Of a stretch of 64,000 nt of DNA, positions 5,178 to 50,579 are shown one piece after another. This DNA comes from Diphasiastrum complanatum. Taxonomy: Eukaryota > Streptophyta > Lycopodiopsida > Lycopodiales > Lycopodiaceae. Below the pieces are notes generated by a model. It was not told the origin of the DNA and did no database searches. It saw nothing but the letters and a program-made list of their open reading frames with translations. The stretch's first letter is position 1; each line of letters begins with the position of its first letter. Where the stretch lies: the NCBI GenBank assembly GCA_029204225.1, contig CM055099.1, forward strand, positions 53,669,470-53,733,469. Reading direction: 5' to 3'. The translations under genes and the position numbers were made by a program.

Positions 5178-5999
5178 CTAGTGTCCACCAGCTTCTTCTT
5201 CATGGAAAGACCTGATTACTATTTGTATTTCTTCTAGTTCCAAGCATCTTTGAAGTTCATCATCACTTCCAAGTTTGTAAAGCACACCTGATATAATAGT
5301 GTATGGTGCTACTTTATATTGAAAAACATTCTTCACTTCTCGAGTCATTTCTTCCGGATATAGCAATGTTTGCAAATACTGAATAATATCACCATATATT
5401 GATTTTTTTATGTTTAACATCAGTTCTTCATCAAGTAGATTATCCGAAATAGGGTCTTTGGGTTCAGTAGTTTCCAATCTCGATAGATAATCCGCATTTG
5501 CATGATGTTTGCCAGGTTGGATTTCCACTATATAATCGAATTCTGATAGTTCGACAGTAAATCTTTGAGTAGATGTTCTACTTGAAGAACCAACACCAAT
5601 TGATCTGGAAGATTGGCCTTCATCAGGTGTTAACGCATATATGAAGAAAACAAAAGCTGTGCCCTCAGCTATAAACCTACATGATCTTCTATGGGATTCA
5701 CAATATTGTACCACCTTCAGGCTCTCATCAAGCTTGGTAAACTTCCTATCATGTTTGTGCTTGGGTTCAGGCTGGGCAACTATCAGTTCATGGAAATGAA
5801 TAAACTTCAGGCCATCAATAACAAGAGATAATTTGAGGATGCTAGTTCGAAACTTTTTGAATAATTCTAATAGGTGAGACCTGTGCTCAAGCACAAATCT
5901 ATCGACATCAAATTTAAGACGAAAAAACGATGAAAAGTACTCAGTCCTGTCTAGAACACCAGCGTCAGAGAGAAATTTATGCAGCTTGTCAGATTCCAT
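5178..5999 (-). CDS. Chimeric ORF: unknown-family N-terminus joined to a gypsy RNase H end
   Basis: The open frame can start at ATG 5999 (MESDKLHKF...). Residues 1 to about 140 match the unknown protein at 45182-46740: both have a KHK..RK stretch, a YC..H.R.CR stretch and AFVFFIYALTPDE versus AFVFYISAEIPDD. Residues after about 145 switch to Ty3/gypsy sequence: EFDYIVEIQPGKHHANADYLSRLE, the end of RNase H, followed by the first His of the H2C2 finger (SFHEEEAGGH). The gypsy RT expected here is absent. The frame also extends upstream to 6299, but that part overlaps a motif cluster and looks untranslated. The in-frame join may be accidental. Confidence 0.65.
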   Translation of the reverse strand: MESDKLHKFLSDAGVLDRTEYFSSFFRLKFDVDRFVLEHRSHLLELFKKFRTSILKLSLVIDGLKFIHFHELIVAQPEPKHKHDRKFTKLDESLKVVQYCESHRRSCRFIAEGTAFVFFIYALTPDEGQSSRSIGVGSSSRTSTQRFTVELSEFDYIVEIQPGKHHANADYLSRLETTEPKDPISDNLLDEELMLNIKKSIYGDIIQYLQTLLYPEEMTREVKNVFQYKVAPYTIISGVLYKLGSDDELQRCLELEEIQIVIRSFHEEEAGGH

Positions 6000-6029
6000 A
6001 TCAGAAATGACAGACAACATTGGATACTG

Positions 6030-6222
6030 GATATTGCAGGCACGCGAGGAACGGAGATAATTTGGATCGACAAAGAGACTGTCGTGTGACAGCAATATCA
6101 AACAAAACATAATGTAACAATATCGCAGGCACGCGACGGTGTGCAAAAAAATAGAGAAAAGTAGCAGTGTTGCATTGTAGCGAACACAATTGAAACGAAT
6201 ATCCGATATCGCAGGCACGCGA
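6030..6222. promoter_or_regulatory. Three copies of a GATATCGCAGGCACGCG motif upstream of the unknown gene
   Basis: Near-identical words sit at about 6030-6046 (GATATTGCAGGCACGCG), 6120-6135 (ATATCGCAGGCACGCG) and 6203-6222 (CCGATATCGCAGGCACGCGA). They end 31 bp before ATG 5999 of the minus-strand unknown-family ORF. A related motif clusters immediately upstream of the homologous gene at 45182. I infer a promoter or element-protein binding site. No binding protein is known to me. Confidence 0.5.
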
Positions 6223-6404
6223 GGGAGTGATGGCAAATAAAATCGAACGTAGTGGACTCGCGTGGTAGTGATATTGCCTTGACGATCTCTGAATAGCAAA
6301 ATGTTTTATGATGCTGTTTAGCCCTTATATAGATCCCGCAGATTCATCGCAGCCGTTCGAAAATCACCGTTAGATATGCGACACTTCAGAGATACGTCAA
6401 GTCA

Positions 6405-18316: not shown

Positions 18317-19090
18317 GTGAAAGATTGTAAGGGGATTGACACCCCTATGGAGCATGTTGTGAAAGCAACTAATGAAGGTGATGAAGCATCCTTTGAGGAC
18401 GTCACCCTCTTTAGGAAGCTTATAGGCTCTCTAATCTATTTAACCATCACTAGACCTGACTTAAGTTTTTGTGTAAGCAAGTTGAGTCAAAGTATGCAAG
18501 CTCCTTTAGTTCATCATTGGAAAATTGCCAAGAGAGTACTTAGATATGTTTCTAGTACTAGATTTTTTGGCATACTTTATGAAGGATCTAACTTGCACTT
18601 GAGAGCCTACTCGGATTCAGATTTTGTAGGTGACAAGATGGATAGGAAGTCCATTAGTGCATTTGCAACATTTCTTTCTGGAGGAGTGATATCTTGGCTT
18701 TCCAAAAAGCAAGATCCAATCTCACTATCTTCTTGTGAAGCCGAGTACAAGGCATTGACTTCAACAACCAAAGAGCTCCTATGGCTAAGAAGACTCTTGA
18801 TGGAACTACATGTGCTAGAGGCCGAGGAGATCCCTTACATATTTTGTGACAATCAAGCTTCTCAACAAATTGCTTCAAATCCTATCTTCCATGCTAGAAC
18901 AAAGCATATTGAGATAGCTCACCACTTTGTGAGGGAGAAGGTACAATCCAAGGACGTGCAACTACATCATGTACCATCATCCGAATGCATAGCTGATATC
19001 TTAACCAAATCATTGTCCAAAGATCCATTTTTTAAGTTAAGATATGCTTTTGGAATTGTAGATAGATGTACACTAGATTTGCCAAGTTAG
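18317..19090 (+). pseudogene. Ty1/copia RT end and RNase H, otherwise intact frame
   Basis: A 257-codon frame reads MKDCKGIDTPME, IGSLIYLTITRPDLSF, WKIAKRVLRYV, then RNase H: AYSDSDFVGDKMDRKS, SWLSKKQDPISLSSCEAEY, FCDNQASQQIASNP, HARTKHIEIAHHFVRE, ADILTKSL. RNase H acidic residues are present. It is truncated at its 5' side by the inverted-repeat arm, so gag, integrase and most of RT are lost. A polypurine tract (AAGTGAGGAGGAG, 19091-19103) follows the stop and leads into the 3' LTR. No stop or shift is seen within the remaining frame, so this truncation is fairly young. Confidence 0.9.
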
Positions 19091-38103: not shown

Positions 38104-38590
38104 CGGAGCGAACCACATTTTGGTTCGCGTCAAATGTTTTTTTTTTTGGACAAAAAGTTTTGTGTGGATTATCCACGCGTGGATAATCCACGTAAATTCT
38201 AGAAACCTATCTGCGTGGATACCATGTGGATATAAAAAAAAAATTATCCCCGTGGTATCCATGGCCTCAACTCTCTAGATTTTGCGTGGATAATTATCCA
38301 TGCAATATCCACGTGAAAGTCGAGCCTTTTTTATTTAATTTTTACTATGACATGGATAATCCATGCATGGATTATCCACGCAAAATTAGAATTCCAATTT
38401 TCAGCTCCAGGTGTCGAAGGTTTGTCCGGCTGCCGGTAGTCGGACTTGGCATGGATAATCCACGCATTTTGAATTTCACGACATCTGACCGATCTGTTGT
38501 CGGAAATGACATTTACGTGGAATATCCACGTGTGGATAATCCATGCGCTTGTATCCATGCGTATATCCACGACTATATCCACGCAAATTC
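38104..38590. repeat. Array of GTGGATAATCCAC palindromes
   Basis: At least eight full palindromes of the form (c)TGGAT-ATCCA(g) lie between about 38162 and 38545 (TGTGGATTATCCACG, CGTGGATAATCCACG, ATGGATAATCCATG, CGTGGAATATCCACG and similar). Several half-sites (TATCCACG, TATCCATG) run to 38585. Spacing is irregular, so it is not a simple tandem repeat. A further inverted pair, GCGAACC/GGTTCGC, lies at 38108-38130. The array sits next to the inverted copia LTR at 38640. Open frames on both strands full of 'WIIHAWII' are by-products of the palindromes. Confidence 0.85.
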
Positions 38591-38639: not shown

Positions 38640-39200
38640 TGTGAGAGCAACTAGAAAGATCAAACAGAATGAATAATAAGCATAGCAGTATTAATACAAA
38701 TCTGAGTGCAAAACAAAGAACTAGATTAAGTATATCAAGTATACATGTCAATAATGCGGTAGAGCACAAGACAATAGCGGACGAAATCGTGTGCCCTACG
38801 AAGCTTATTCAATTTATAAAGGAATGAAACCTTATTATTGACAAAAAAGAATCAATGCACAACGCATCTACTTCGTCTATCTCGCTAATAAGCTTCTGAT
38901 GCTAATTTACATACACTCTCATTTGCTCATCTTTAGTCATGACTCAAATCGTCCAATACTCGACCTCTTGATGATTACTCTATAATCTCCACTATATGGA
39001 AATGATATTCAGTATCTATATATATACATCATGTTATAGGTGTGCAGATGAAGAAAGTACAGGATGCATGTGCTGTTTGTAAGAGATCGTGGGTGGTTGC
39101 AATCGTTGTCCAGTCTATTAGCGTAGCTGCGTAGGGTGAGCGTGAAGAGGGTGTGACGTCAGCCTTTGCTTTTCGTCCTTTGCAAATTCTTCATATGAGA
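38640..39200 (-). mobile_element. Inverted copia LTR fragment matching 49700-50180
   Basis: In reverse complement this aligns with the plus-strand LTR at 49.7-50.2 kb through GAGCAAC, CATTCTGT, GACATGTATA, GCACACGATTTCGTCC, GATAGAC-AAGTAGATGC, GAAGAAAGTAC and the GGCTGACGTC block. Identity is moderate. The internal coding region expected on its lower-coordinate side is absent, and the palindrome array is there instead. Confidence 0.75.
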
Positions 39201-39433
39201 ATTTGCATGTTAATATGCAGACTACGCGACAACTCGAGTAAATATGTAGCATGAATGGAGGCAGATTAAAAAATGGGATTTGGTAGAGTAGAGGAAACAA
39301 ATCCAACAAGTTATACCAAACTCAGTGAGAAAATTGGACAACAAATGCTCCCAACTAGGATCAGAGGCGGAAGCCATTACTATTATCAGTTCTATGTGAG
39401 AGGGGTAACCGAGATAAAGGGAGTATACTATGC

Positions 39434-39928: not shown

Positions 39929-40070
39929 CATTACCTCTCTCTCTCTCACTATTTTCTTTGTAGACACTTGTACAAGACCGATACGGCCGTACATATCGCA
40001 CCTCTGCGGGACTAGTTACCCTCTTCTCATCACTGTTAGAATAACTGCGCACTGATCTGATACTACGCTG

Positions 40071-40600
40071 ATGTCTAGGGTCAAAGAAAACCGAAGAGAT
40101 TTCTTCTCTCCTGGAACTGTATCCACTAGTACCCTTGCTATTAATGCTCCATGGTAGACCAGACGTAATAGGAGCAGATGGCTCTCTGAGATTAAGAAAT
40201 ATCATAGATTCACCTTGCTCCTGATACCAAGGGCACCATTCTACATAACTAACCGTAATATTATCTAGGATAGTCTGCAAAGTCTTGTCACATTCACACC
40301 TGAAGCATTGTAGTGCTTGCAAGAGTTCGCGGAGGACTATTTGGCTCTTTTTTTTTAAGATTCTTTTTTGCTTTGTATCCAACTAAGCGGGTCACCATAA
40401 TGCCCAAAGATTTTTAGATTTTGTATAGAATGAGGGAGAGGTTCTGTAAACCTCACAAGGGTGAACCCTTAGCTCCCCGGAACGAATCCCTTGACAGGAC
40501 TAACCTTCTCACTAGCAGGCCTCGCAAGCAACCTGCCCCTAGAAGGAGCAAGAAATCCTCTGCTCAGGCTCCCAAAAAGGCCCGACGCATGGACCTCTAA
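40071..40600 (+). pseudogene. Histone H3-like protein, copy 2 (degenerate)
   Basis: From ATG 40071 the frame gives a basic leader and a TAG (about 40152). It then aligns to the histone H3 core: SEIKKYHRFTLLLIPRAPFY against H3 [20 protein letters not shown], then a TAG, 'D....LVTF', a TAG, then LQEFAEDYL against LQEASEAYL. After a one-base shift in a T run (40348-40356) comes TKRVTIMPKD, identical to H3 KRVTIMPKD. A basic tail follows (RPRKQPAPRRSKKSS, APKKARRM). Four in-frame stops and a frameshift make it a pseudogene. It is followed by a protease-like gene, the same order as on the minus strand. Confidence 0.75.
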
Positions 40601-40748
40601 CCTTCCTCATCTGGAGGAGATCAAATTGTAAATACTATAGCCCTAGATATTGTGGTCAATTCAGCCACAAAAATTTTGGACATTCCATCCATTGTGAATA
40701 CTCTCCCCCCTCCTCCCGTTTGTGTCAAACCTATAGTATATTTAGATT

Positions 40749-41320
40749 TTGATGATGAAAGATATTTTAGATGCTATAGATAATATTGGCATGCCAATGC
40801 TCTTCAAAATAGACGAAATTGGTTTCGAGCTTAACTTTAGAATCCCAGATTGTATTCAGATGAAGGATAGAAGGGCCTCTATCAGTGATCCAGTGATTGA
40901 GGCGGGTCTCCCCTTACTACAATATGATATTGCAAGGGATTCCAGGAAAGATTTGTTGCTTCTCAGCAATGTTTTTCTGCAGGGCATCGAGGACAACAAT
41001 GACACTTTGTCACACTGTATCCTTGGTGCTTGCTCACCAGCTGTGAAGTTTCTGTTGATGCCTTATCATACCAAGTATGTCTATTTCTTTACTTGTAATC
41101 ACTGTATTATCTATCTAATGGAATTCTTCATTGTTTTTTGTAGTGATCACTGGAGTAGTAGGATAGTAATCGAATGCTCAGTCTGGGGAGTCATGTGGAG
41201 TTTTAGTAGTAGACAAAAAATGCTCAGATATAGGAGTGGGTAATAATCGCCACTCCACACTACACATGATAGATGAAAAGAGGTCTGTCTCAGAGGCTCT
41301 CAAAACACTCCTCCGGGAAG
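40749..41320 (+). pseudogene. C48/Ulp1-like protease, copy 2 (partial)
   Basis: Frame 40749-41074 ends LSHCILGACSPAVKFLLMPYHT. A GT-AG intron is predicted at 41075-41143 (GTATGT...TTTTGTAG). Joined, the exons read PYHT-NDHWS, matching PYIT-NNHWSLYVV of the minus-strand gene with the intron at the same codon position. H of DHW would be the catalytic His. Further on, in a shifted frame (about 41256-41315), MIDEKRSVSEALKTLL resembles the Asp box. No Q..SCGW cysteine box is readable, so the C-terminal part is lost or scrambled. The upstream part (DPVIEAGLPLLQYD, LLLLSNVFLQGIED) has no known motif. Confidence 0.55.
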
Positions 41321-41701
41321 TCTTTTGTTCTTATGTTATCAGCGCAGATCACTGTCACAACACACACTAGCATTGATTACTTTATGTTAATTGCTCTTTG
41401 AACAAGAACGCTCCATATCTGCAGGTAAGAGTAAGGCAGGAAGAGCATATAAAATGCAAAGACATTGGAACATCCATCGAAATTGAAGATCCATAGATTA
41501 TGAACTATGAAATTTTGTATTATGTAGTACAATTTTTTGTATACATCATTTTTGAAAATATATGAATGAATCATAACCTGAATTGATAAGAGGAAAAATA
41601 ACAAGTAAGAACAACCACAGAAAAACTGTAAGTATATTTCTATTAAAATTTTCTGTACATGTGTCTCAACCACATCAAGTGAGACGAATATTTAAACAGA
41701 A
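41321..41701. other. Spacer between two convergent gene pairs
   Basis: AT-rich, with no recognisable coding sequence. It separates the 3' ends of the plus-strand H3-like/protease pair and the minus-strand H3-like/protease pair. It may hold terminators for both. Confidence 0.4.
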
Positions 41702-42828
41702 TCAACTATCTATGATCCCTAAATCCATTTCTCCAGTTGGAAGTAGCTTGGGTGGAGAACACTCAGCCACTGCAATTGGATATGAACTTTCGATCACAAG
41801 CTTTATGGTCTCCTGCCTGAAGTGCATTATCTCCATTGGGGAGACCTTCGGGCATTTAAACTGAAAAAAAACATAAACACAGTTAAATGTAATTAATCGA
41901 AGATCAATTAATAGGAGTTTGTATATGAAAAAAACAAAAACACAATTAAAAGTAATTAATCGAATATTACCTCTTCCAGATTTGAAAGTCCATCTTGTAA
42001 TGCAAGCCAATTAAAAAAGTGTTTGGCATTGCATACAGTATACCAACCACAGCTGACAGAATCAACTTGCTGGGAGGACTGCAGAATCCAAATTCGAACA
42101 TTATGAGATATCGGATCAATGCGCAAGATGTAAGAATAAAATCTACAATGGAAACAAGCGCGCGTCAAAACGATATCAAAAATTTTTGATTGAATATCGG
42201 ATCAGCACGCACATTGGAAAAATAAACCAATCAATAACTACAAGGGCGCGTCGAACCGATATTGAAAAATCTATACCTCTGCATCAACCATTTTCAGCTT
42301 CGAGTATGCTTTTGCATTTGGTACTCGAAAGAGTTCCAGTATTTTCTGTATATAGGTCCTGGCAATTTTGTGTGTGTATCTGTAATAGAGTTCATCTTCA
42401 AACAAACTGAATTACACACACCCTCAACATTGACATACATGGACACCACATATAAGCTCCAATGATTACTGAAATCAAAAAACAAGAAATTTATGAGAAT
42501 CAATGTGAAATCAAAATTCATATGAAAAATTCAATATAATAAAATCTAAAAAATAGACACTTACTTTGTTATGTATGGTAGCACGAGAATTGGAGTCCCC
42601 ACTCTGACTTATTGGAGCATATCATCATGCAAACTAATCAAGAAAATCAAATAATGCCATGAATTGAAGGGGAAACAATGAAACATCTATAAACAATCGG
42701 GTTTGGAAGAACTCCATCCAGTACTGAATTGTCCCACCTCCTACATTGTCCCCTAGCATTTTATCCCTACTTTCTAATTCACCAGTATCTAAACTAGAAA
42801 GGGGGAGACCAGCATTGGTCTTCGGCAT
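41702..42828 (-). pseudogene. C48/Ulp1-like cysteine protease gene, multi-exon
   Basis: Minus strand from ATG 42828 (MPKTNAGLPL...). Predicted GT-AG introns: 42469-42564, one ending at 42143, and 41861-41970. Exons read GTPILVLPYIT-NNHWSLYVVSMYV (His box), YILRIDPISHN (Asp box) and SSQQVDSVSCGWYTV (Gln and catalytic Cys), then a C-terminal FKCPKVSPMEIMHFRQE to a TGA at 41702. The His-Asp-Gln-Cys order and Q-to-C spacing fit the C48 (Ulp1)/adenain-type fold, a desalting of SUMO- or polyprotein-cleaving enzymes seen in several DNA transposons. Frameshift/stop near 42625-42645. The middle intron carries copies of the 18-bp motif. Confidence 0.6.
42107..42263. promoter_or_regulatory. Four 18-bp motifs in the protease gene
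   Basis: GATATCGGATCAATGCGC (42107-42124, within the Asp-box exon), GCGCGCGTCAAAACGATATC (42158-42177), AATATCGGATCAGCACGC (42193-42210) and GGCGCGTCGAACCGATATT (42245-42263), the last three in the preceding intron. They are variants of the motif clustered at 43744-45173, in both orientations. Confidence 0.6.
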
Positions 42829-42962
42829 CCTAAAACTATATCAAGGACCTAAACCTTTAAGATACATGTTTAGCAATTGGTCATATTGTACATATTGAGA
42901 ACTGTTTACAAAGGAAAGTGCAGGGGGTGACGGAAGTAACACTGATAAACCACAAATAATTG

Positions 42963-43730
42963 TCATTCAAATTGATCTAAATCGCTTCCAACGGGTTTAG
43001 GAGGAGGAGAAGATTTAGGAGGTGGAGATTGGTTAGGAGAGGAAGATTTAGCAGGAGAAGTTAAAGATGGAGTGGAAGGAGAAGAAGGAGACTTAGGAGG
43101 AGAATTAGGAGGAGAATGCCTAGAAGAAAGAATAGTATTCAGAGGAGATGGCTTGGAAAAATCCCCTGCTTTAGATGGAGGGTCAAGAGACCTCCTCTTC
43201 TTTGAAACACTCTCGTTATGTATACAAATAACAAGCCAGGTTGGTTGAGATTGCTTTCGTTTTCTCCTCTCTGAATCTTGTTTTGGAGGAGAGGAGGGAG
43301 CAAGTCTAAAGTATTCAACAAACTTGTCATATGTGTCCCAAAGCCTAAACACAATGTTGAAATACTTGGGCATGATGGTCACCCTCTTGGCATGGACAAC
43401 TGCAACAATAGTATCAGAAAACAATTTCATGTAGAAATCCTCATATGTTGTGTGCAGCGTCTCAATTGCCGTTACCGTCCATCTCACATCTATAGACAGA
43501 CTTCTTGTCACCTACCTGATGGACGTCTGTATGTGAGATTTCGGAATCAGAAGATTATTTGTCTTCTGAAGCTTTTGAATATCCTTGAGCCAAGGTGGGT
43601 CTCTTCTTCTGCCCCTTGGCCTAGGAGGATGTGGTAGTGGACGAGGTGGTGGTTGTGGATTTCCTTGACCCACACCTAAAATTGGTATTCCACCTGAATG
43701 CCCTTGTGTTGTCTGCTTGGTCTGCGCCAT
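42963..43730 (-). pseudogene. Histone H3-like protein with long Ser-Pro tail, one in-frame stop
   Basis: ATG 43730 begins AQTKQTTQGHSGG, aligned with H3 ARTKQTARKSTGG (K4 kept; R2, R8 and K9 changed). A Pro/Arg-rich linker follows, then WLKDIQKLQKTNNLLIPK against ALREIRKYQKSTELLIRK. TAG (43512-43514) stands exactly where H3 has the Glu of LVREIAQDF. The same frame continues SLSIDVRWTVTA against DFKTDLRFQSSA, then TYEDFYMKLF and VVHAKRVTIMPK against AIHAKRVTIMPK. After the histone fold comes an extension of about 120 residues with basic clusters (ERRKRKQ, KKRR) and many SP/SPP motifs, like linker-histone tails. Nucleosome or DNA binding is inferred. Confidence 0.75.
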
Positions 43731-45181
43731 TACTGTGTAGTAGCGGATCAGCGCGCGATAATGTTGATTTCAGGATCAGACCTCAGGTCGGACGTGTCGA
43801 AGCGATACATGAACTAAACAATTCCGTTAGCTGATAGCTGATGGGCGCGAGCGAGTAGGAACGGATTGAAGGAAGTTGTTTTGGAGTGCGCTGAATTGAT
43901 ATCGCATGGATACAAATAACTATAAGAAAAAAAATTTCAGTGTCGTTGATCAGTTTATATAGAGAAAATAAAAAATGATTGCAAACGTGGTGGCTTGTAT
44001 TACAATGATGAATACTCAGAGGCTTGTCAATCAAATCAATCTAATTATCCATCAGTCATCAAAATGATTAGTCCATATCGAATTAACTAGAACTAATTTC
44101 AAATAAAGTATGGTCACATCTACAATTAATCACACTTCTACCATTTAATGCTGAAATTGACAACGTTAAGCTTTAAATATAAGACCTTTTTTATATCCAA
44201 TAATTATAATTTTGAAAAATTTCAAAGGCCAGATTCTCACTCGATAGCTAATCAACGCGCATATAAAGCATTTGACAACCATAGTATGTATTCTTGCGCG
44301 CTCATCCGATATTGGGCGCAATATGAATGATTGGAACTTGATTCGATAGATTCTACATAACTTGGGCTAGTATGAAGAGTCTTTCGAATCAAGCTTTGAT
44401 CATGCATATAGGGTCCAATAGCTTTGAAAATTTCGATAATATTTTGGTCCTGGAATAGCAATTCGACGTGCGCAGTCCAAATGCAGCAAATACATCATCT
44501 GCCAGGCGCGCTGATCCGATATCCCATACACCGAAAAATCATACTGGAACGCATAATGAAAGACTTATGAAAATGTTCTGAATGAACATTATCTCAAAAG
44601 GAAAATTTTTGTCTTTACAGTGCTTAAATAGGGCAAGAGACTGTAATAATTCTCTTCGTTCACATTTTTCAATGATATTCATTAGTCAATTGTTTATGAT
44701 TTTTTTAATGATTATTCTAGGAGGCTAGTGATTGTCTATTTAATGTATTCCAGCATAGGGCTGATGATGATTCGTTGAATCTAGTACTAGACTAGTTAAT
44801 GTATTTTGGCGTAGGTACAAATTATTCTCATTCTGATTGGTGGATAAATATAGGCTGTAAATCACAATTCATTATTTGACAAATGTATGGCTGTGATCAA
44901 CAGGAATTGGCTATAAATATGTGCACCACTTTTCATTTTTTGATTCCGTAATCTTTTATTCTGAACTCTCTAGCCTTCTTGTTTATCTTCATTCTCTTGA
45001 TATCAAATCAACGCGCGCCATCCCTTGTTGTGCATACTCGCATTCATTCAGGCACGCTGAATCGATATCAATCACTTTCGACCAGTGCTTTTTGGAAAAT
45101 TTCATTCTCGGCCTTACCATATCGAATCAGCGTGCCTCTACCGATATTTATCTGATGCATTGAATCGATATCGGATTCAAT
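43731..45181. promoter_or_regulatory. Divergent intergenic region with nine 18-bp motifs
   Basis: The region separates the minus-strand H3-like gene (start 43730) from the plus-strand unknown gene (start 45182). Motif copies of GCGCGCTGATCCGATATC or its complement are at 43744-43756 (partial), 43886-43903, 44242-44260, 44296-44313, 44506-44523 (consensus), 44999-45016, 45052-45069, 45119-45136 and 45154-45173. The last four lie within 185 bp of the unknown gene's ATG. Otherwise AT-rich and non-coding. Likely a bidirectional promoter; what binds the motif is unknown. Confidence 0.6.
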
Positions 45182-46740
45182 ATGGCTAGTTCCTCCATGG
45201 CCTCAGATGACAAACTTATGGATTTTTTTAATACTAGTGACATTCCATTTGACAAATTAGAGTATTTTGCCAGTATTTTTTTTCTCGCTTCGATATCGAT
45301 AAGCTAGTTTATGAGAATCGTTATAATTTAATTTCTTATCTTGATAATTTTTCTCAGATTATTAGTAGTCCTGTCATGGATATAGATAATTTTTGTTTCG
45401 TTCATTTTCAGGACCTTGTACATTCCCAACCATCCTCTAAGCATAAATACAATAGAAAGTACTCTAACCTGCATGACCATTTCAAAAGAAATATATACTG
45501 TGATATCCACAAAAGAATATGTCGCCTTCTAATCAAAGGAATGGCTTTTGTGTTCTACATATCTGCTGAAATTCCAGATGATGAGTTTGTTGAATCTTCA
45601 AGTGATCCAGTGATCGAAGCAACTACACATGCTCTAGTTGATGTAAATGATGCAGATACTGATATAGGGATTGAAGCTGAAGCTTCTGTGGCTTCAAATT
45701 ATCAAAAAACTCTTCCTCGTTCTATAATCCTCTCTGATTCTCTTTCATCTGCATCTTCTATTAATCAATTAACTCTACTCGATGTTCCTTTATATTTTAT
45801 AAATAATGAATGTTATATTTCATTTAATGATATAGAAGATGTATTGAATTTGAGAGATTACGCAATCCTCTCAATTTTTGCTCAAAATTTATCAAAATTT
45901 TCTGACATTGTTGATTACTCATATGATGACCTTGAAAGTGAGATAGATTATGATAAAGATCGCAATTGGAAATCTGGCAATGAGGCCTTGGAGGCCATGA
46001 TTGAAAAATCTAAAGCCTATGAAAAGACTTTGCCTACAGAGGAGGAATTTCTGGAATTTCAAAAAAGATATCCCTCTAGGGCTAGATATATCCCCTCCAG
46101 AAATGTAGAGGCCATTGGAGGACATGACATCAGCAGAACAAACGTCATTGATTACGATGATTATGATCTGGTAAGTAGATATTATATTGGTATTGATATT
46201 GTTCAGTTTTCTTATTTTTTATTGGTATTGATATTGTTCAGTTTTCTTATTGAGTTTGCAGTGTTATGTATCATTCTAAATTTATTTTCTTTTCTCGTAC
46301 AGGATGCTATTGAAATAGATGCCTTTGGTATGAGACATGGAGGCGTCCGAAGTATATCAGCCGGGGGAAAAGATGTTTCCCTATCTCATTATTTGAAAAA
46401 CTTTCAAAATCATGAGATTTGTATATATCATTCATCTTATAATCCATATGCAACCACTGTCATTATGGCCATCAAATCATTATCGGTTTGTTTAGGAGGC
46501 CATAAGCACGCAAGAGGAACATATAAAATAATTTTTGTAAAGAGAGATTTGGCTATTAAGATATTGGGTTATACTCCCAATGAGACTACCAAAAGATCAT
46601 CTTCAATGGCCCTTTATTCGGGTTACATTGATATGAGCAAGAGGAAAAGTTTAGAATTTTTGGATCCATATGAAAGGAGATTATTCCTTCAAGACAATAT
46701 CATCCGTCTGAATCTTGAAGAGGATGATGATGATAATTAA
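45182..46740 (+). CDS. Unknown-family protein, two exons, one homopolymer frameshift
   Basis: I do not recognise the family. ATG 45182 (MASSSMASDDKLMDFFNT) is supported by homology to MESDKLHKFLSDAG of the ORF at 5999. A frameshift lies in the T run 45276-45283, after which the frame that opens fully at 45376 is homologous to the 6-kb copy (HFQDLVHSQP, KHKYNRKYSN, AFVFYISAEIPDD). A 132-bp intron, 46171-46302 (GTAAGT...TACAG), is stop-free and divisible by three, so retention would also be translatable. The C-terminal part (GMRHGGVRSISAGGKD, SYNPYATTVIMAIKSL, acidic end EEDDDDN) has no known motif. The gene faces the transposase-like gene, 30 bp apart. Confidence 0.6.
46186..46255 (+). repeat. 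35-bp tandem duplication in the intron
   Basis: ATTGGTATTGATATTGTTCA plus following bases occurs twice, at 46186-46220 and 46221-46255, inside the predicted intron. Near-perfect copies. Confidence 0.85.
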
Positions 46741-46769
46741 ATAATTTTCTGTAATAGATTTTTGATATA

Positions 46770-49120
46770 TTACAAGGACCTCTCTTTTGTAATGAATTTG
46801 AATGCCTTACAAAATATCGTAATACTTGACGAGTTTTTAGCTTGATATCTAAATTGTGCTCTTCTGTAAAACCACTGAAAAAGTTGAACTAAATATTTAT
46901 TTCTTGAATTGTGTCCTCCATGATTTGTTGCTCTATGAAATGCTCCCCTTGCTTTCCAATGAGATTTTTCCATGCCTTGTAATGACCAGATACTTAAGCT
47001 CCTATATTCCTTTGCAAAATAAGTTGCATGATGAAGAAGGATGTGCTGCAAACAACAGTTTTGATTAGTTACATCAGTAGAAAAATATATAAGCTTGAAT
47101 GAGAAAAGTACTAGATAATGATATAGATTAGCACCATGTAATGAGTAACGTTGTCTTTTCCCCAACAATCATATACAGATTTTACAAATGTGGTGCAATG
47201 ATTTTGCAAAGTCCTCATATCTTCTAATGATAGGTTTTCTTTCCTGATAACACCTATGAGTTTGTCTAAGTTGGTCCACACTTGTCCCTTTTCCACTCGA
47301 TTACTTCCTTCCAATGTTCGTGTGGCTTGAACAATTTCTCTCCAAATTTTGTATCTGACACTTGATTCTTTGCATGTGTGATTGGATAAAAATCTTCTTG
47401 CTTTAGCACCTCCAATTGATGGCTTATTAGGAACGCTTCCTTTTTTCTCAGAGAGTCTGTCACTTTTTTCAATTGTGACATTTCCTTTATGTAGTTCTGC
47501 ATTTGACAGAACTATTTCCAACCTCCTAATTGCCACTACTCTGGTTTATGATTCCATGCTAGTAGAATATGCAGGTAAATTAGTTTTTCAATAATACGAA
47601 CCTCAGCATGCAATGTGCATATGTGAAAATATTTTAATGGAATTGGCAGAACACTTTTCATATTTGGATCTTCAGCTTCTCATGTTGGGCCAGTGTTTGT
47701 TGATCATCCCAAATTCATATTGTAGCAATCCTTCATGCAATAAAGACATGGATGCTTTGATGTTGTCCCATGAGAGACATTATACATGCATTTTAATGTT
47801 TTCAAATCCCCTACAAGATGCCATTGAACTTGAAAACTTTCATGATTTTCGACTGTAAATTTCTGACCCTCCAAATGTCTCTTTATAATCTCGCCATAGT
47901 TTGTTCTTGAAAATATCCATGATAGTATTTTATGGTCCTCTTTCAAGACCTGTAGAGAAACAAGTAATGCATCACATGTCAATAAAAACTGGCAAGGTAT
48001 GAATTGTTAATATAGATATTTTAAATGAAAATTGAAATGTATACCTGGGATGCCGTCAACCACCATATGTGATTTTCCAATTGAACACTAAACGTTCGAT
48101 CATCTGTATCCGAAATTTTGTTCATCAAAGTGACACTCACACGTTCCAACTTCTGACCCTTGATGATTTTAGATTCATCCAATTTTATTACAATAATAAT
48201 CTTTCCATTTACTTGATGTTCGTCTAGTTTATAGAATCGAAGAATGTATTTTAGAACATTTTCAATATCAAGGAAAATATTATTGCAATTGTTGTAATTG
48301 AGCTCACCATATTCTGATTTGTATAATTCAGTTATATGAAGTGGTTGGCCAACTACTTTGAACATTCCGTCATCACTTGGGAAAAAGCTTCTTTAACTAT
48401 TCTAAAAAAAGTAGAATAAGCATTTCTGCTAATTTCAGATACATCACATGCACCTTGTATCACATTCGCATCCAAGTATGATTGAACCTTAATCAAAACA
48501 GTCTCTACAATTTCATTTTTCATTTTTTCAAACCGAGCATTTTTTATCATTTCCTTTGTTGACTTTCTTGGTAAAACATGTTGTTGATTAGCAAATTGTA
48601 ATTGCTGATTCAGACAATATATGCTATGCATTCCAATATCTCGCAACCTTTGACAATATCCAAGTAATCCGCTATTTCCTTCACATACATATCTGAGAAG
48701 ATGAGTTATGGACTTAAAATCTGGATACAAATTGGTAGCTGGATCATTAGGATAAATTGATCCATCCACCCACAAATCTATATTCATATGATTATTCATT
48801 CTCAATTCTCTAACTATTGCTGCAACATTCTCTACAACTTTCGCATTTTTTTTAATAATTGGAGTGCATTCCATCGGAAGAACAACATGCAAATGGAACA
48901 TTGCCATTGTTAAAGCTACAATCATGTAAATGAATCTACCTACAGTAAATCAATATGAATAGATCTAGCATTTCTTACTTTTGTAATGTTTATGTTGCAT
49001 TGAAAAATCGTCTCACCTCATATTTCATTATAAGCATACAGTGATTTCAAAAGTTTTGTCTCTCCAGCTTCAGTTTTTGCATTGAGCACACCAAGATTTT
49101 CAGTCTTAAAGCTCTAGTCC
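46770..49120 (-). pseudogene. Transposase-like multi-exon gene with frameshifts
   Basis: Minus-strand exons with plausible GT-AG introns at 48940-49016, 47950-48044 and 47046-47134. Text in order: LLKSLYAYNE; FIYMIVALTMAMFHLHVVLPMEC; MFKVVGQPLHITELYKSEYG; IIIVIKLDESKI; VGDLKTLKCMYNVSHGTTSK with HPCLYC; LPIPLKYFHICTLHAEVR; HILLHHATYFAKEYRSLS; WSLQGMEKSHWKARGAFHRA; TNHGG. Asp in KLDES and GDLK, the CxxC and HxxxH pairs and the TNHGG end recall large DDE-type transposase-derived proteins; this comparison is from memory and the catalytic set is not proven. Frameshifts near 48370 (T run), 47700 and 47590-47540. An F-box, kinase or other host enzyme signature is not seen. Confidence 0.5.
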
Positions 49121-49409
49121 CGAATTTGGGAACGAGCATGAAGAGAAATTATTCCATCTCATGCTAAACTAACTATTGTCTGAAGTTAACCATACTAGTT
49201 AAACGTCATGCAAGGCCGAAAACTTGGAAAACGGTGACCAGAAGTTACCGGTTTGTATTCTCTCTCTACATAACCTCTCTCTAAAGTAAAATTTCTTAAA
49301 GGGCCCATTTTGAGCCCATATTTCTCCTAATGTCAAAACAAAGAAGTGTCTTTGGAGTAGGAGCGCTGACACTCCTGCTTCAGAGGCACCAAACAAGCCA
49401 GGGCATTTT
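49121..49409. other. Spacer upstream of the transposase-like gene
   Basis: Non-coding; a possible first exon or promoter of the minus-strand gene. No copies of the 18-bp motif are seen here. Confidence 0.35.
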
Positions 49410-50579
49410 TGTTGGATTTATCTCCTCTACTCTCCTAAATTTCATTTTATTCTGCCTCCATTCCTGCTCCATTTTCACTCACATTGTCGCACAGTCTGCA
49501 TAAATACAAGTAAACTCTCACATGCGAAGAAAAGACGAAAAGACCGTGACACTATGTTTTTACATGCGTTTTGTGATAGGCGAAAAAGATGACACTGCCT
49601 CACAAAATGCCGAAGGTGCCCTAGGAAAAGTGAAGGCACCCTGTAAATCAAATCCTAAGGCATTTCGTCAGAGTGACGCATTTTTCGCATCTCCACCAAT
49701 GTTCATTTCAGCGAAGGCTGACGTCGCGGCCTTTTCACGCTCATCCCATATAACTGTGCTAACGAATTTGACAACGACAGCAGCCACCCACGATCTTCTA
49801 CAGACAACACATCCACTTTGTACTTTCTTCATCTGCACACTTGTAACATTGTGTATATATATTGAATACCATTTGCATATTCAAAGAATTGATGAATGAA
49901 GTGTGTGTAAGATAGAGCATGTATTAGAAGCCTATCAGAGATAGACAAAGTAGATGCCCTCGAGAATTGATTCTTTATTGTCATTAATAGGTTCATTCCT
50001 TTTATAGATTGAATTAGCTTTGTAGAGCACACGATTTCGTCCACTATTGTCTTGTGCTCTGCCGCATTATTGACATGTATATTTTGCTATACTTAATCTG
50101 ATAACAACTCCCTTGTTTTGCTTTCAGATTTGTGTGAATATCGCTATGATTTTCTTCATTCTGTCTGACTATCTTGTTGCTCAATCTGCTAATCTGTTCT
50201 TAGCAAGTTATTATTAGTCTAGCTGTTGATGACTAATATTTAGTCATGTCTTTCGCAAATCATTCGCGACTGATTATCAGTTGAGCTCAGTATAGCTCTT
50301 TCACGAATTATTTGCGACTAATAATTTGTCTAGCTATTCGCGACAAATTATTCTTATGATGTTCAATTAGGGTTTGGCTACGTAATCAGATCAATCGTGA
50401 TTTCTATATGTTCTGTTTGTTTCTGATAGGCGTAGTCATACTTAGGGAAAGAGTAATATAGGTCATTCCGCTGCACACAAACACATTCTGTTCGAGTTTC
50501 AAGTTTGTTTCTTTTCGTGTTTGTTTTCTTTTCGAGCTATTTTCATTTCTCACACACGACACACCCTCTTTCTCCAACA
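49410..50579 (+). mobile_element. 5' LTR of plus-strand copia element
   Basis: It ends CTCCAACA directly before the PBS at 50580. A TGTTGG at 49410 mirrors the CCAACA end and is the likely start, though not confirmed by a second full copy. 49700-50180 matches the inverted LTR at 38640-39200. Between about 50255 and 50345 it has TTCGCGACTGAT, TTCACGAATTATTTGCGACT and ATTCGCGACAAATTATT repeats. Confidence 0.65.

Follow-up and report, generated by a model that had tools for sequence, protein, structure and literature searches.

A histone H3-like gene carried by a family of DNA transposons with terminal inverted repeats in Diphasiastrum complanatum

A family of DNA transposons with terminal inverted repeats (TIRs) in the genome of the lycopod Diphasiastrum complanatum carries a histone H3-like gene in three subfamilies, and we are highly confident that this gene is an integral and selected core gene of these elements, which are cut-and-paste-like. 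The gene was studied in a stretch of 64,000 nucleotides (contig CM055099.1, positions 53,669,470 to 53,733,469 of the forward strand), here called the window, and genome-wide searches covered the window's own genome of 1.74 Gb. The three subfamilies are referred to as the window type, the L005 type, and the L009 type. In the best overall explanation, on which our judgement is evenly balanced, the transposons would encode an H3 variant that has kept K4, has lost K9, and escapes K9-based silencing.

The H3-Like Gene of the Window

On the reverse strand of the window, positions 43730-42963 form a single frame that contains, in this order, MAQTKQTTQGHSGG, LQKTNNLLIPK, and VHAKRVTIMPK, with one in-frame TAG within the fold (Table 1). 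The first-pass annotation had noted these H3-like motifs and placed them in one register, which is borne out by the common frame, by a match to the Pfam Histone profile, and by the alignment of an open relative to H3. The profile, which had been proposed as a check, recognizes one half of the gene and not the other: the part after the TAG matches PF00125 with an E-value of 2.7e-07 and 31.3 bits (cut-off 26.4), and the part before the TAG, searched alone, has no Pfam match. The open relative of the window gene, L031, aligned with solved H3 chains over H3 positions 1-132 in a phmmer search (best E-value 3e-18, chain 9mb2_A). Thus, the H3 likeness of the window gene is not due to chance.

The similarity of the window gene to L031 extends past 42963, where the frame is lost, to 42564 and includes a C-terminal region, the D domain. 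The stretch described at first as a tail of about 120 residues is therefore a linker ahead of more protein; it is SP-rich and basic as reported, but the gene does not end at 42963. Its supposed likeness to linker histones was not upheld, because the basic SP-rich stretch is almost neutral (dN/dS 0.99) and is followed by the conserved D domain. In addition, Pfam found no linker-histone domain (Linker_histone) in the tail-bearing window frame (E-values up to 1), in L007, or in L009. The only Pfam match in the window frame was Histone (E-values up to 1), and L007 and L009 matched histone-fold families only. A 99% identical copy of the broken window gene is located 0.4 Mb away (C8:53251861-53252406) and may represent a segmental duplication or an unmerged haplotype.

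Table 1. Positions of the H3-like gene, the surrounding elements, and related features in the window
Feature	Position	Strand	Remarks
Empty site in a Copia copy for the element at C8:36.89 Mb (L007)	18874..18986	-	Target without insertion
Long inverted repeat, left arm	38645..39309	+	Outside the inner element; arms 72% and 77% identical, gapped
Second H3-like and D-domain relic, L009-related	40065..41075	+	Several stops; 57%, 44%, and 60% identical to L009 in three stretches
Window-type element, left-truncated copy	41420..49332		Without gene A and left end; right end kept; blastn against E12, E16, and E8
H3-like gene, broken	42564..43730	-	TAG in frame within the fold; frame lost near 42963; open copies elsewhere
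C-terminal D domain, remains	42564..42957	-	tblastn, L031 residues 285-417, 83-86% identical
H3 alphaN and histone fold	43323..43601	-	PF00125 match after the TAG; relative L031 aligns with host H3 without gaps
H3 tail peptide, M-AQTKQTTQGHSG	43692..43730	-	K4 retained, G in place of K9
Gene B	45253..46740	+	495 codons open; no Pfam match above cut-off
Gene C, transposase-like, in pieces	46863..48949	-	Pieces 40-59% identical to gene C of the L005 type and of the relative beside L018
Right terminal inverted repeat, inwards CATTAGGAGAAATATGGGCTCAAAATGGGCCC	49301..49332	-	Matches the right end of copy E8
Long inverted repeat, right arm	49409..50182	-	Same inverted repeat as 38645..39309

The Element in the Window and Its Surroundings

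The element that contains the gene was matched by blastn to three other copies, E12 (L024+L025), E16 (L026+L027), and E8 (L028+L029), with pieces that are 85-98% identical. Its right end is CTCCTAATG, and its gene B is 57-88% identical to pieces of E16 and 35% identical over 91 amino acids to gene B of the L005 type. On the strand opposite to the first H3-like gene lies the L009-related relic, which was overlooked in the first-pass annotation. The window reads, apparently, as one H3-bearing element inside the remains of another, an account that leaves the long inverted repeat outside. A second gene-B-like open reading frame (ORF) at 5178-6305 on the reverse strand, which shares 38.7% identity over 106 amino acids with gene B of the window, is, judged from its sequence, what is left of another member of the family. 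Just beyond the left arm of the inverted repeat, a cluster of GTGGATTATCCAC-like palindromes (38165-38590) could mark where a different type of element ends. Direct duplications of approximately 2.1 and 0.5 kb, which are 92-94% identical, adjoin the window-type H3-like gene in E12 (L024+L025 8091-12936). By eye, the host H3 and the elements of the Copia and Gypsy classes all look plant-like.

Copies and Subfamilies Across the Genome

Further copies, some possibly intact, had been anticipated, and more than 100 of each of two types were present among the matches listed, open copies included. A search with PF00125 yielded at least 153 matches in the genome (150 of 6,325 candidates scored), which are distributed over every large contig (C1-C23) and many small ones. 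In this search, 13 canonical H3 genes with 163.7-165 bits are followed by a long series at approximately 95-110 bits; the three lowest matches listed (82.8-84 bits) span half of the profile, and the two that were inspected are exons from H3.3-like genes of the host. The window-type protein had at least 153 matches (150 of 9,567 candidates scored). Those listed are 73-86% identical to the query, cover it mostly at nearly full length, and occur with and without stops, the exceptions being the window itself and its 99% identical copy. For the L009 type, at least 122 matches (9,665 candidates) were 84-98% identical to the query copy, and 21 of the 122 listed are free of stops. Copies of the L005 type are mutually 91-98% identical in aligned DNA. 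Between the three subfamilies, the fold is 34-48% identical (43/89, 31/90, and 41/92 positions), and we infer a single capture before the subfamilies split. Capture of a histone by a mobile element, as initially proposed, is strongly supported by the number of copies, the defined inverted-repeat ends, and the companion genes, as well as by the purifying selection that acts on the fold. The two outcomes named beforehand as contrary to it, absence of any H3 profile match and a unique host pseudogene, did not occur: one part of the gene matches the profile, and the copy is not a unique remnant of host H3.

Element Ends and Insertion

The elements terminate in CATTAGGG, and TIRs were found at both ends of L019-L022. 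Three elements of the L005 type (L019-L021) are 7.4-8.7 kb long and carry at both ends the largely palindromic sequence CATTAGGGCCCTTTTTGGACTCAAAAAGGGCC. With up to 2 mismatches, the L005-type end TAGGGCCCTTTTTGGACTCAAAAAGGGCC occurs at 1,757 places in the genome (888+869), and the related left end of the window type, CATTAGGGGATATTAGANCTCAAAATGGGCCC, at 967 places (473+494); the reversed pattern gave 0 places in each case. Four of the H3-like copies listed sit 2.6-3.8 kb inside a window-type left end when the coordinates are compared by eye. Both the L005-type and the window-type ends contain TTAGGG, which is like one telomere repeat unit.

Four insertions were compared with empty sites, the ends being taken as CATTA...TAATG. 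For L022, comparison with four empty copies revealed 0 bp of target duplication, and for L019 the duplication is 0-1 bp relative to one empty copy, with one base that differs. L007 on contig C8, compared with the Copia copy within the window, also shows a duplication of 0 bp with TATTG as the right end, a 2-bp parse with uneven ends being possible, too. For L023, whose right end is about three bases short, two empty copies indicate a duplication of at most 2 bp. No empty site for L020 and L021 was found among the matches listed. Thus, the elements insert with little or no target duplication, which amounts to 0-1 bp at three of the four insertions with empty sites. At C6:6.13 Mb, an L005-type element that is internally inverted (L011 with L017 and L018) is inserted in gene C of a relative, and its flanks form one continuous frame by eye, with no duplication. 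L022 and L023 are 1.1 kb long and have L005-type ends, and their interior ORFs are by eye unlike those of the large elements and unlike each other; they read as putative MITE- or Pack-like derivatives.

Companion Genes

The gene set of the L005 type consists of gene A, the H3-like gene, gene B, and gene C. Among window-type copies, E16 matches all four genes, E12 matches A and the H3-like gene, and E8 matches the H3-like gene, B, and C. One L009-type copy contains B, the H3-like gene, and A, in a comparison whose stretch excludes the side where C would lie. Genes A and B and the H3-like gene are thus common to three subfamilies, and C was seen in two. The gene orientations of the L005 type are unlike those of the window and L009 types. 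None of the genes A, B, and C has a Pfam match near the cut-off.

Of the 113 places listed for gene C, at least 22 are no more than 10 kb away from one of the H3-like genes listed (compared by eye). Gene C has no family match, but candidate acidic residues are conserved by eye in KLDE, DLK, and GMEKSH, and these acidic places would suit a DDE transposase. Three pieces of gene C matched no hAT family by Pfam up to an E-value of 10, in searches whose HMMER filters drop most weak matches. The order of short motifs in gene A of L019 (603-915 joined to 1014 onwards) and of E12 resembles that of a BAH domain. This likeness is a hint only and was not retained as an assignment: Pfam gave no match up to an E-value of 10, the best PDB match had an E-value of 0.57, and a profile comparison gave P 0.041 and a probability of 1.3, with shuffled controls that were without usable values.

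Protein Architecture and Membership in the H3 Family

Measured from stop to stop, open frames of the window type comprise 417 codons in L031 and 426 in L038, and the methionine of the tail lies 13-15 codons inside. They encode the H3 tail peptide, a Pro/Arg-rich linker, alphaN and the histone fold, an SP- and K-rich linker, and the D domain, which ends in VLPYI(T/K)K. The L009 type shares this order, and its D domain ends mostly in VIPYHTK. In the longest frame of the L005 type, approximately 300 residues lie between the tail peptide and the fold, and nothing follows the fold. The D domain has no Pfam match, and two single-sequence AlphaFold predictions gave no confident fold (mean pLDDT 43.1 and 44.4).

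The core histone fold was recognized by PF00125 with E-values of 3.7e-29 in L007 and 3.8e-28 in L009, and the H3-type tail start ARTKQTAR is present in L005, L006, L007, and L039. Identity to host H3 in the fold is 40-55%, with 49/89 positions for L005, 48/89 for L009, and 36/89 for the window type. Six residues which we take to be important in H3 (H113, K115, R116, T118, K122, and D123 in the presumed H3 numbering) do not vary among the three folds aligned; at D123, the window copy itself has Y. Compared with two segments of plant CENH3 other than that of the host, the fold is identical at 46/89 and 42/89 positions (L005), 46/91 and 43/92 (L009), and 31/90 and 37/91 (window type). The LLIP motif is shared with CENH3, and the tail is H3-like. 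An origin from viruses was considered and set aside, as three H3-like proteins and one piece of gene C had no relatives among the virus contigs of IMG/VR in a search that detects close relatives only.

Selection on the H3-Like Gene

Pooled pairwise dN/dS, with bootstrap over codons, reveals purifying selection on the fold of every subfamily and near-neutral linkers. For the fold, the values are 0.45 (interval 0.30-0.69, n=13) in the window type, 0.35 (0.20-0.60, n=11) in the L009 type, and 0.32 (0.15-0.81, n=6) in the L005 type, in sets that were mostly picked for open frames, which favors low values, but with linkers drawn from the very sequences that gave the fold values. The linkers have values of 0.99, 0.79, and 0.74, and the tail together with the first linker 0.79 and 0.58, with intervals that include 1 in all cases. 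The D domain has dN/dS values of 0.51 and 0.30. Left out were the window copy, L030, and E8 of the 16 window-type copies, 7 of the 18 L009-type copies (broken or short frames, and two with internal length changes), and L011 and L019-L021 of the L005 type. Among the companion genes, exon 2 of gene A has a dN/dS of 0.49 (0.30-0.85) and exon 1 of gene B of 0.50 (0.34-0.78). Constraint on gene C is not clear in the L005 type (0.72, 0.41-1.49), and three window-type copies of this gene gave 0.50 (0.27-1.06).

Tail Lysines and Methylation Footprint

Among the tails matched by pattern in the individual copies examined, 13 of 13 window-type, 26 of 28 L009-type, and 9 of 9 L005-type sequences have K4, and none of the 50 has K9, one false match of the L009 pattern in the window having been dropped. 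Genome-wide, tail patterns that leave codons 4 and 7-9 unspecified were found at 130 (window type), 79 (L005 type), and 429 (L009 type) places; the reads listed comprise 100, 79, and 100 of these. Among these reads, K4 was present in 99/100, 79/79, and 96/100, respectively (274/279), and K9 in 0/279 across all three types; these tallies are conditional on the neighboring codons, which the patterns fix, so that copies with other neighbors are uncounted. Codon 9 in the reads listed encodes mostly G in the window type (94/100) and D in the L009 type (90/100), and in the 79 L005-type reads it encodes D, or G in two cases, as judged by eye. Tails could be cut out by script from 5 of 13 open window-type and 10 of 11 open L009-type copies, and K4 is the sole lysine before alphaN in 4/5 and 9/10 of these (13/15). 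The L005 type has an in-frame MSEE ahead of MARTKQ. If this upstream start is used, the N-terminus of the tail would be hidden in this subfamily.

The three subfamilies bear a footprint of DNA methylation. At CG, CHG, and CHH sites, C-to-T changes per site amount to 8.84, 7.74, and 2.25% in 28 L009-type genes, to 12.03, 10.07, and 3.37% in 12 window-type loci of 1.4-1.8 kb, and to 4.16, 2.87, and 0.57% in five L005-type elements; other changes at these sites amount to 0.19-1.87%. In each set, C-to-T changes are thus 3-7 times as frequent at CG and CHG sites as at CHH sites, which is the signature of CG and CHG methylation and identifies the elements as its targets. In plants, CHG DNA methylation depends on H3K9me2. 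In the window-type copies examined, 23 of 33 stops are TAG and stand where the reference copy encodes Q or W, as expected from C-to-T decay at CG and CHG sites. In the L009-type copies examined, 9 of 12 stops fall on a single codon inside the fold, codon 100 (L051, L067-L072, L075, and L076). Programmed read-through of a stop at this codon was considered and rejected: the codon follows a T run and varies between GAG, TAG, TAT, AAG, and GAA, and is thus read as a hot spot of mutation or base calling and not as a regulated stop.

Possible Role of the H3-Like Protein

The H3-like protein probably works as a chromatin-forming H3 variant. It would pair with host H4 and enter nucleosomes, probably on the element's own DNA. 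Since K4 is nearly always the sole lysine of its tail and K9 is missing, nucleosomes of this kind could receive the activating mark but not the K9 mark, which in plants is coupled to CHG DNA methylation. The element would hereby supply its own silencing-resistant H3, and the variant would be anchored to element proteins or DNA by its D domain or by the long linker rich in Pro. That escape from K9/CHG silencing is the purpose of the protein is plausible, if somewhat short of probable; as a best guess, it would be one form of the role in targeting or shielding its DNA that was suggested for the captured histone at the outset. Any escape must be incomplete, given the heavy methylation footprint on the elements. 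Still more tentatively, the family may be a new plant DNA transposon superfamily without target duplication that lays a dedicated H3 variant, made from the captured H3 and markable at K4 and not at K9, on its own DNA, and so breaks the loop between H3K9 and CHG methylation. To our knowledge, few ways are known by which transposons counter silencing. If true, this one would strike silencing directly at the level of histone marks, and K4 and K9 would be naturally separated within a single H3. It can be tested by means of the ends, the empty sites, and the open copies, and the prediction would be that the element H3 is found on element chromatin and that K9 methylation is missing there.

The absence of K9 might be a side effect of tail decay, and K4 might be retained for a different partner; the dN/dS intervals of the tail with the first linker include 1. 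Alternatively, the protein might be an architectural or transpososome part whose fold bends or wraps the element ends, or dimerizes with the products of gene C or A, and has no role in silencing. Such a part would fit the constraint on fold and D domain next to freer tail and linker regions, the palindromic ends of the L005 type, and a D domain that lacks a Pfam match; however, it leaves unexplained why the K4 peptide is kept in all three subfamilies despite the replacement of the rest of the tail, and we regard it as unlikely. The same peptide is central to a reading as H3-tail mimic, which would bait host K4 readers or writers, for recruitment of the transcription machinery or as a decoy, and use the fold only to fold or dimerize the protein. 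The N-terminal KQT is indeed kept across the subfamilies, even in the L005 type with its distant fold, but a pure mimic needs no constraint on the fold, which belongs with the D domain to the most constrained parts of the protein, so that this role seems distinctly improbable.

A passive hitch-hiker, that is, a host H3 transcript captured once and copied without function, would have a precedent in the RIP-inactivated hAT elements of fungi, as described in the available text of PMC6710886, and most of the L009-type copies listed do contain a stop. Against such an origin without function, to which we assign only a marginal chance, stand the low dN/dS of the fold (0.32-0.45), with the near-neutral linkers as an internal control, and the retention of the gene in three subfamilies with folds so far diverged from each other. 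The preferred reading remains a transposon-encoded H3 variant that would resist K9-based silencing.

Relation to Known Systems

In the open-access literature, the terms used retrieved two fungal cases of transposon- or virus-borne H3 and no plant case. The hAT elements of Pyrenophora tritici-repentis contain 26 H3-like (H3L) genes (PMC3538342), and hAT elements with H3-like genes are also described from Pseudocercospora fijiensis and relatives, with 784 copies in P. fijiensis, whose amplified copies are reported to have been inactivated by RIP (PMC6710886). According to the available text of these reports, the elements of these Dothideomycetes resemble the present ones in being multi-copy TIR transposons with an H3-like gene beside the transposase (intronless in P. 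fijiensis), and those of P. tritici-repentis also have an ORF of unknown function. Full fungal elements are about 5.6 and 9.5-9.9 kb long, with up to 784 H3-like copies; their transposases have hAT domains, and in P. fijiensis the TIRs measure 20 bp and the target duplications 8 bp. In contrast, the host of the present elements is a plant, their gene C matches no transposase family of Pfam, their ends are CATTAGGG, and insertion duplicates 0-1 bp of the target. Their H3-like gene differs in the K9-less tail, the D domain in two types, the purifying selection on the fold, and the presence of several diverged subfamilies. Assignment to the hAT elements was therefore rejected, as no hAT domain was found and the four insertions show 0-2 bp in place of an 8-bp duplication. 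The present elements belong to the same broad kind as the H3-carrying TIR transposons of fungi, yet fail the tests for hAT. H3 capture by DNA transposons, known from fungi and mostly inactivated there, thus occurs also in a plant, and here the gene looks kept for use.

The VANDAL transposons of Arabidopsis resemble the present elements in encoding a protein against host silencing, a function that is proposed here; their VANC proteins are sequence-specific anti-silencing proteins, and the available parts of the reports (PMC10398659, PMC5735166) mention no histone. H3 proteins encoded by viruses (xenomavirus, Sylvanvirus) are a further parallel, being parasite-encoded and thought likely to join host histones in nucleosomes (PMC9145170, a review of viral histones whose available text mentions no transposon-borne H3). 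The viral proteins are 75-77% identical to cellular H3 and reside in virus genomes (PMC9145170), whereas the H3-like proteins described here share 40-55% of their fold residues with host H3 and are encoded in chromosomal transposons.
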